This document shows positions 57,321 through 59,260 of a stretch of DNA of 64,000 nt, one piece after another (within the stretch, counting starts at the first letter, position 1; each line of letters opens with the position of its first letter). The stretch is from positions 186,001 through 250,000 of the forward strand of contig CALLUS010000005.1 of assembly GCA_938010435.1 (NCBI GenBank). The letters run 5' to 3'. The notes beneath the pieces are model-generated. The model did not search any database and was not told the origin of the DNA. It saw only the letters and a program-made list of their open reading frames with translations. Source of the stretch: an uncultured Rhizobiaceae group bacterium (lineage in GTDB: Bacteria; Pseudomonadota; Alphaproteobacteria; Rhizobiales; Rhizobiaceae). The translations under genes were made by a program, and so were the position numbers.

Positions 57321-57488
57321 ATGGCTAAGGCAACCACCATCAAGGTGAAGCTGAATTCGACAGCTGACACCGGCTTCTATTATGTCGCCAAAAAGAATTC
57401 ACGCACAATGACTGAAAAGCTCACAATGCGTAAATACGATCCCGTTGCAAAAAAGCACGTGGAATTCAAAGAAGGCAAAATCAAGTAA
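57321..57488 (+). CDS. rpmG: 50S ribosomal protein L33
   Basis: A 55-residue ribosomal protein read directly from the sequence: it begins [20 protein letters not shown], continues with [20 protein letters not shown] and ends EFKEGKIK. It matches the proteobacterial L33 form without zinc cysteines. CAAGGA lies before the ATG. A promoter and a strong terminator flank it, so it is probably a single-gene unit. I recall rpmG following pleD co-linearly in other rhizobia; here it converges on pleD. Confidence 0.96.
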
Positions 57489-57509: not shown

Positions 57510-57540
57510 AAAAAAGGCCGCTCATTGAGCGGCCTTTTTT
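57510..57540 (+). terminator. Terminator of rpmG
   Basis: AAAAAAGGCCGCT (57510-57522) pairs with AGCGGCCTTTTTT (57528-57540), a GC-rich core with a short loop and a six-T run. It begins 22 bp after the stop. Confidence 0.92.
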
Positions 57541-57649
57541 CGTTTAAGGCGTTTCACCATTTGGTGGAGTGATTATGCGTCAGAAGTCGCCCGGTTTTGG
57601 GGATACTTCTGATTTTATATCGAAGTGAGCACCTCAAATATTTTAAAAT

Positions 57650-57792
57650 AAAAAATTGAACCGGTTGGCGTATGAAAATACGAGGAGGCAGTTTCATACA
57701 ACCAACCGGAAACCTCGCGAGCTTAGGTGATGCGGCGGGCCCAAGCTCAAAACGAAGCGATACAGAACGAACGTAAACCCGTCCTGTTCTGT
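57650..57792 (-). ncRNA. Candidate structured RNA with anti-Shine-Dalgarno loop
   Basis: The 343-bp interval between the rpmG terminator and pleD has no convincing gene but is highly structured on the minus strand. In the 5'-3' sense it shows ACAGAAC/GTTCTGT (57792-57762), AGCTT/AAGCT (57747-57720), and a double stem CCGGTTGG/CCAACCGG with GTATGAAA/TTTCATAC (57709-57661) followed by a T-run to 57650. The last is a strong terminator with a CCUCCU loop (57688-57683), an anti-Shine-Dalgarno motif. The loop CCUCG can also pair with CGAGG at 57717-57713. The 5' end is unknown, and I saw no clear promoter, so it may be a processed pleD 3' UTR. Confidence 0.55.
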
Positions 57793-57883
57793 GCAACCAA
57801 ATTCGCGCAATCGTCAGCAAGACTCAAGAGCTCAAAGCTAAAAGTCGCAATGTTAGTAAATACTTAACCTAAACAAACAAGGT

Positions 57884-59260
57884 TTACGCAGCGTCTGCAA
57901 CCACCTGATTTCGACCTGTTCTTTTGGCTTCATAAAGAGCTTCATCTGCGCGCTTCATCATACTTTCAATTGTATCATCTTCGCCTTGAAGTGATGCAAC
58001 ACCAGCGCTTACCGTGACAGAAATTTGCTGTTTGCCACCATCAATAACGAATGGATGAGCAGCAATTTCTTTGCGCATGCGATCTGCAACCACAAACGCC
58101 AAAGCACGGTCGGTTTCAGGCATCGCAATGACAAATTCTTCACCACCAAAACGACATGCCAAATCTTCGGAACGAACGTTCTTGTTCAAACGCTGTGAAA
58201 AAGTTTTCAAGACGTCATCACCGGCTTGGTGACCGTAGGTGTCGTTAACTTTTTTAAAGAAATCGATATCGAACACAATCAACGATAAAGGCTTCCCGCC
58301 CAAGATCGCTTTGTTGATAAGATTATCTGAATGAGAATCAAAATAACGTCGATTGTTCAACCCGGTAAGCGAATCTTTGACCGCCATTTCCATTGTATTT
58401 TGAACGCTGGCACGCAATTGATCATTCAATCGTTTACGCCGAATTTGTGTTTTAGAACGGGCAATTAACTCATTTTGCTCAACTGGCCTATTAATATAAT
58501 CGTTCACACCAAGATCAATACCACGAATGAGAGCAGCCTCATCGCCTTCTTGAGCAACAAGCAACAGTGGCACGAGACGCGTGCGGTCCAACGAACGCAA
58601 TTGCGAACACAACCGAAGTGCATCGAAATTCTCAATCGACAGTGAAATTATCACCAAATCAAAGTTTTCATCGGCAGCGCGAAACAGAGCTTCCTGCGGA
58701 TTGGTAACAACAGTGACACGATGCAACTGTCCCAGCGCTTTCACAATCGGTTCATACGATGAAGCACGATCATCAACGACCAAAACCTTACCGTCACGAT
58801 CTGATGGTAATTCAATCGATGAGTCGGATATCTCATCCAAGCCCAATTCACGCCCCGTGGAGACCCGTAAATGCAGCTCATCAGTCACCATTTTCAGTCG
58901 GGACAAGCTTTTGACTCGAGTTTGCAGAGCAAGATCGTTGATCGGTTTGGTAAGAAAGTCGTCGGCTCCCGCTTCCAATCCGTTTAATTTATCAGAAGGT
59001 TGATCAAGCGCAGTGACCATAATTACCGGCAGATGGGCCGTACGGCGATCTGCTTTCAACGTACGGCAAACTTCATAACCATCCATTCCAGGCATCATAA
59101 CGTCCAACAAAACGATGTCACATTGGCCACGCTGACAGATATCAAGCGCCTCAGGTCCGTTAGAGGCAGTTAAAACCTCAAAATACTCAGCCATCAAACG
59201 CGCTTGCAAGAGCTTTACATTCGCCTCTATGTCGTCAACAACCAATACACGTGCTGTCAC
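57884..59260 (-). CDS. pleD: PleD-type response regulator diguanylate cyclase
   Basis: A 458-residue two-receiver diguanylate cyclase that controls polar development. The first receiver has the phosphoacceptor in DIVLLDVMMPGMDG (about Asp53) and KPIN for the conserved Lys. The second is degenerate and serves dimerisation. The GGDEF domain has GGEEF at about residue 372, with RSED five residues earlier as the inhibitory site. The start is GTG at 59260 with GGAG upstream. It follows divK by 40 bp, the standard alphaproteobacterial operon. Confidence 0.96.
   Translation of the reverse strand: MTARVLVVDDIEANVKLLQARLMAEYFEVLTASNGPEALDICQRGQCDIVLLDVMMPGMDGYEVCRTLKADRRTAHLPVIMVTALDQPSDKLNGLEAGADDFLTKPINDLALQTRVKSLSRLKMVTDELHLRVSTGRELGLDEISDSSIELPSDRDGKVLVVDDRASSYEPIVKALGQLHRVTVVTNPQEALFRAADENFDLVIISLSIENFDALRLCSQLRSLDRTRLVPLLLVAQEGDEAALIRGIDLGVNDYINRPVEQNELIARSKTQIRRKRLNDQLRASVQNTMEMAVKDSLTGLNNRRYFDSHSDNLINKAILGGKPLSLIVFDIDFFKKVNDTYGHQAGDDVLKTFSQRLNKNVRSEDLACRFGGEEFVIAMPETDRALAFVVADRMRKEIAAHPFVIDGGKQQISVTVSAGVASLQGEDDTIESMMKRADEALYEAKRTGRNQVVADAA

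Follow-up and report, generated by a model that had tools for sequence, protein, structure and literature searches.

What does the DNA between pleD and rpmG encode in this uncultured member of the Rhizobiaceae? The window, a stretch of 64,000 nucleotides, carries pleD on the minus strand (57884–59260; NF007135, 676 bits), with a DivK-like receiver gene upstream of it, and a convergent rpmG for ribosomal protein L33 on the plus strand (57321–57488; TIGR01023, PF00471). The original prediction described three minus-strand stems in the space between them and proposed either a new sRNA or a functional pleD 3' UTR. The structured RNA adjoining pleD is a divergent ecpR1, a known stress-induced sRNA that slows the rhizobial cell cycle. 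The sRNA family is already known, and the RNA of the window is a functional-looking divergent member of it. The explanation that best fits the whole of the evidence, held with high confidence, is an ecpR1 gene with its own promoter and a three-hairpin RNA that would act as an antisense through the loop of its middle hairpin, SL1, with dnaA as the most plausible target.

The Rfam family RF02500 (Atu_C6/EcpR1) matches 57654–57760 of the minus strand with 44.2 bits in an E-value search of 601 bases (E 5.7e-5; whole-genome E 7.9e-5), and the match spans model positions 1–113 of 113. The curated gathering score of RF02500, a reporting threshold and no biological feature, is 60 bits and is not reached. 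The default Rfam scan is therefore silent on ecpR1, and at gathering thresholds Rfam reports only a tRNA in the whole window. A leave-clade-out covariance model, composed of eight congeners outside the clade of the window and six wider homologues (14 sequences), gives the window 72.7 bits (E 4.9e-15). It has no second match in the 464 kb searched, which comprise the window and 400 kb besides it from this genome and serve as the genome background. Nucleotide search alone recovered congeners only. In Sinorhizobium meliloti, ecpR1 (also SmelC291, Sra33 or SmrC10) was mapped between divK-pleD and rpmG (Robledo et al. 2015; PMC4414408), and the RNA of the window likewise sits between divK-pleD and a convergent rpmG. 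The same neighbors recur among wider homologues, with pleD upstream in 55/58 and rpmG, scored with tblastn, convergent downstream in 45/58. The RNA is therefore taken as ecpR1 from the RF02500 matches, the leave-clade-out model and the published locus; homology and locus are both direct observations. Instead of a new sRNA, the locus encodes EcpR1/SmelC291 of RF02500, and the proposed likeness to alpha-r14-type RNAs finds no Rfam match up to E = 10.

The minus strand of 57645–57795 folds into three successive stem-loops with a minimum free energy of -62.4 kcal/mol (z = -7.5 against dinucleotide shuffles, with 0/200 shuffles equally stable), which confirms the three predicted stems. The 5' hairpin, SL0 (57765–57792, minus strand; ACAGAAC...GUUCUGU), is found by folding and lies outside the Rfam model. 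SL1 (57712–57758, minus strand) consists of a lower stem, a 3-nt bulge and a 9-bp upper stem, and is backed by the fold and by compensatory changes. Its 12-nt loop, CCCGCCGCAUCA (57728–57739, minus strand), leaves the GC-rich motif CCGCCGCAUC unpaired and corresponds to the antisense seed of the EcpR1 family that was validated in S. meliloti (PMC4414408). SL2 (57661–57709, minus strand) has a variable stem in two parts, CCGGUUGG/CCAACCGG and GUAUGAAA/UUUCAUAC, and presents CCUCCU in its loop (57688–57683) just as had been predicted; the family core of this loop is UCCUC(G). S. meliloti EcpR1 has the same two conserved stem-loops, with CCGCCGCAUC as the SL1 loop core and UCCUCG as the motif of the SL2 loop; it also has a 5' extension upstream of SL1. 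The window differs from it in the SL1 loop, where UCCGCCGCAUCU has become CCCGCCGCAUCA and the flanking U and U are now C and A, and in a rewritten SL1 lower stem; its Rfam score falls under the cut-off. All 12 intact congener sequences, each folded alone, form the two-hairpin core with the 12-nt SL1 loop unpaired.

Alignment of relatives, which had been suggested as a check for compensatory changes, bears out the stems. Of the cells in the 14-sequence alignment, which leaves out the clade of the window, 96.7% are paired, and both sides have changed in 11/22 pairs. Neither value is reached by any of 500 shuffles, and pairing falls to 52–56% when the partner is shifted by one column. The covariation signal comes mostly from the outer stem of SL2, where 10/11 pairs have changed on both sides. 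Within the genus, 6/7 pairs of the SL1 lower stem show both-side changes after hand adjustment of one column. Compensatory changes have preserved the stems, and the original prediction is right in seeing a structured trans-acting sRNA between pleD and rpmG.

The strongest constraint is on the SL1 loop, the most conserved loop of the RNA and the one that the original prediction did not mention. Its core CCGCCGCAUC is unchanged in 71/71 homologues checked. The prediction had instead placed the active antisense element in the SL2 loop, as a new anti-Shine-Dalgarno sRNA of the alpha-r14/cuckoo type whose CCUCCU would be masked by a pseudoknot with an upstream CGAGG. Like the alpha-r14, cuckoo and AbcR-type sRNAs, SL2 has a C/U-rich hairpin loop that could pair with Shine-Dalgarno sequences, and UCCUC is kept in 70/71 homologues. 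However, CCUCCU itself is present in 62/71, being lost in congeners G010 and G012 and in 7/59 wider homologues, whereas the SL1 loop stays the same throughout. In G012 the SL2 loop is replaced altogether, and G003 retains SL1 without SL2. The window RNA has no sequence or covariance match to those other sRNAs and occupies another locus, whereas its homology to EcpR1 is clear, and the demonstrated interaction of EcpR1 uses the other loop, SL1, in which two changes abolish the phenotype in S. meliloti (PMC4414408). The pseudoknot is possible as far as complementarity goes: CGAGG (57717–57713) can pair with CCUCG of the SL2 loop, and in the genus this loop matches the SL1 arm better than shuffles do (mean z -1.8), an excess that is no longer clear across the wider family (mean z -0.57). 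In the minimum free energy fold, however, this arm is locked in the covarying lower stem of SL1. The covariation of the SL1 stem, the loop statistics and the weak complementarity in the wider family do not favor the anti-Shine-Dalgarno reading, which is considered very improbable. In G003 (L144, around position 1515), an isolated SL1 with the invariant loop stands beside pleD, and both SL2 and the convergent rpmG are gone.

A putative -35 element CTTGAG (57823–57828, minus strand) and, 17 nt after it, a putative -10 element CGAATT (57800–57805, minus strand) align with the mapped sigma-70-type promoter of S. meliloti ecpR1, ATTGAT-N17-CAATGC, and the spacing is constant in the genus alignment. 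With CTTGAG-N17-CGAATT at 57828–57800, the 5' end would fall close to the base of SL0. The predicted primary transcript begins at about 57793 and extends at least through SL2 (57661), and the ecpR1 gene is assigned to 57661–57793 of the minus strand. The RNA follows immediately after pleD on the same strand, and judged by sequence read-through from pleD is possible, as would be expected of a 3' UTR element or a transcript-end structure without a separate sRNA. Yet the promoter between pleD and the RNA is orthologous to a functional one, ecpR1 is an independent transcription unit in S. meliloti (PMC4414408), and a purely terminating hairpin would keep no invariant 10-nt loop. Because of the orthologous promoter just upstream, a pleD 3' UTR alone is a most improbable account, slightly more so than the anti-Shine-Dalgarno sRNA.

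Two further elements surround the promoter of ecpR1. The SL0 region has a z of -3.7 in this species and reaches a Stouffer z of -5.5 in the genus, versus -1.3 for a control region. In the wider set the corresponding values are -8.4 and -3.4, although these combined scores overstate independence because the sequences are related. Throughout the family, SL1 is preceded by a 5' hairpin whose stem sequences are unrelated. In S. meliloti, a published sigma-54-like motif, AGGAAGG-AAAC-TTCCA, occupies the place of SL0; since this motif is itself an inverted repeat, we read it as what may be the 5' hairpin. Further upstream, a conserved element TTAA-N7-CTAA (57853–57867, minus strand; expected 0.006 times per 200 bp in this genome) is placed just after pleD across the genus. 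The CtrA consensus is TTAA-N7-TTAA, and the ecpR1 boxes resemble CtrA boxes. Among wider homologues, TTAA-N7-TTGAT/TTGCT overlaps the -35 element in 37/55 (loci L022–L051), with none in the control region. Judging from these motifs, direct control of ecpR1 by CtrA is possible. The main text of a CtrA ChIP paper on S. meliloti mentions neither pleD, rpmG nor sRNAs (PMC4433202).

The 3' end is less clearly marked. The original prediction called SL2 with its T-run a terminator. A T-rich run does follow SL2 (57645–57660, minus strand) and could be a species-specific terminator tail; it is absent in the two nearest relatives (G008 and G013; loci L140 and L141), being private to this species, which makes the terminator call uncertain. 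A simple terminator scan did not include SL2 and its T-run among its calls. A conserved GC-rich terminator hairpin, AAAAAAGGCCGCTCAATGAGCGGCCTTTTTT (57510–57540, minus strand), with T-runs on both sides, is common to ecpR1 and the convergent rpmG. In relatives the equivalent hairpin follows SL2 by a few tens of nucleotides. In the window, a repeat of about 96 bp (57638–57543, minus strand) separates the two and widens the distance to about 120 nt. This repeat is absent from this place in relatives, and S. meliloti EcpR1 also differs from the window in this respect. Two further copies of the repeat in this genome occur at G000:C1:31877–31971 and G000:C4:79220–79310; the copies are 77–80% identical and contain an internal inverted repeat, CAGAAGT...ACTTCTG.

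The function of EcpR1 has been established in S. meliloti, where stress expression, dependence on ppGpp and repression of gcrA and dnaA through the SL1 loop were shown. The loop pairs with gcrA at -109 to -95 and with sites over the ribosome-binding site and start of dnaA, and compensatory changes partly restore the phenotype lost by changes in the loop (PMC4414408). EcpR1 acts independently of Hfq, and dnaA decay is due in part to RNase E (PMC4414408). An independent transcript induced by stress and in stationary phase is among the traits of EcpR1; in the window its counterpart is the aligned promoter. For this organism we infer expression of EcpR1, repression and the targets. A vegetative-sigma promoter just downstream of pleD would start a short three-hairpin RNA whose middle hairpin presents the 12-nt loop, kept single-stranded. 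The loop would base-pair with cell-cycle mRNAs at GGCGG-type sequences in their 5' parts, and this pairing would block translation and promote mRNA decay.

Whether complementary sites are present or absent can be observed directly, and it differs within the genus. In G002, G004, G009, G010 and G011, the gcrA leader carries a GGCGG-type site (best AUGUGGCGGA) at about -90 to -105, and the position of this site counts for EcpR1 since it matches the validated site at -109 to -95. In several congeners the site makes up the 3' side of a short hairpin with T's after it (CCACAAATGTGGCGGATTTT; gcrA leaders L174–L187, about -95). Inspection of the gcrA leaders of G000, G008 and G013, the clade of the window, revealed no such site, and the window also differs from S. 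meliloti in this regard. The target set is therefore not simply inherited. The window species has a different hairpin at that place of the leader (GAACCC...GGGTTTC). UGCGGCGGA occurs at gcrA -197 in G000 and G013, where it sits in an apparent promoter and would probably escape transcription.

With the S. meliloti-type gcrA site missing, dnaA would stand as the target in this species. The dnaA ribosome-binding site reads ACGGCGGAU(A/U)AUUAUG in G000, G008 and G013, and its CGGCGG at -12 forms 6 bp with the SL1 loop. CGGCGG is found at the ribosome-binding position in 2/331 gene starts of this genome. The energy of the dnaA duplex is ordinary, as 79% of 300-nt start regions do as well, and thermodynamic ranking of gcrA and dnaA against the 331 gene starts is not discriminating; position and conservation were therefore used as evidence. 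On that evidence, the dnaA ribosome-binding site is the most plausible direct target here. A further proposal is that the clade has been rewired, with loss of the gcrA site, targeting of the dnaA ribosome-binding site and direct CtrA control of ecpR1 via TTAA-N7-CTAA. This combination is unlikely; if true, an RNA driven by CtrA would tune DnaA and so complete a regulatory loop. Target comparison within the genus makes it directly testable how gcrA and dnaA have lost or gained sRNA sites. The modest new points are a gcrA site that this clade lacks and several congeners keep, the dnaA alternative, the 5' hairpin and the CtrA-like box.

The loss of the gcrA site could also signal that ecpR1 is a decaying copy whose function is being lost in this clade. 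The low Rfam score of 44.2 bits and the repeat inserted before the terminator are in line with decay, as are the loss of SL2 in G003 and the lack of a match in G005 and G014. Against this, G000, G008 and G013 preserve their stems through compensatory changes, the RNAs of these three species are 92–94% identical, and the SL1 loop is intact. Decay is accordingly given little credence, about as little as the anti-Shine-Dalgarno sRNA.

A low Rfam score is frequent in the genus. RF02500 matches at the same locus in 13/15 same-genus genomes and exceeds the cut-off in 7/15, with no match in G005 and G014 among the 15 scanned; a substantial part of the matched genomes (6/13) thus falls below it. The analysis extends a cell-cycle sRNA to a lineage overlooked at the standard Rfam cut-off. 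Beyond the genus, the family is matched in 125/151 genomes of the window's family and, with E no higher than 0.01, in 214/297 genomes of the order, of which 164 exceed the cut-off. By our count from the listing, the order-level matches span about 43/52 Hyphomicrobiales families sampled, and a class-wide sample added two more families outside the order, compared with five families reported. EcpR1 of Methylosinus sporium 5 (PMC12403871) also adjoins rpmG and has two stem-loops; it is an RNA-seq transcript that was named by Rfam, the search having passed, whereas the copy in the window is known from its sequence. Outside Hyphomicrobiales, loci L254–L257 in families f61 and f142 carry full EcpR1 homologues that exceed the Rfam cut-off.
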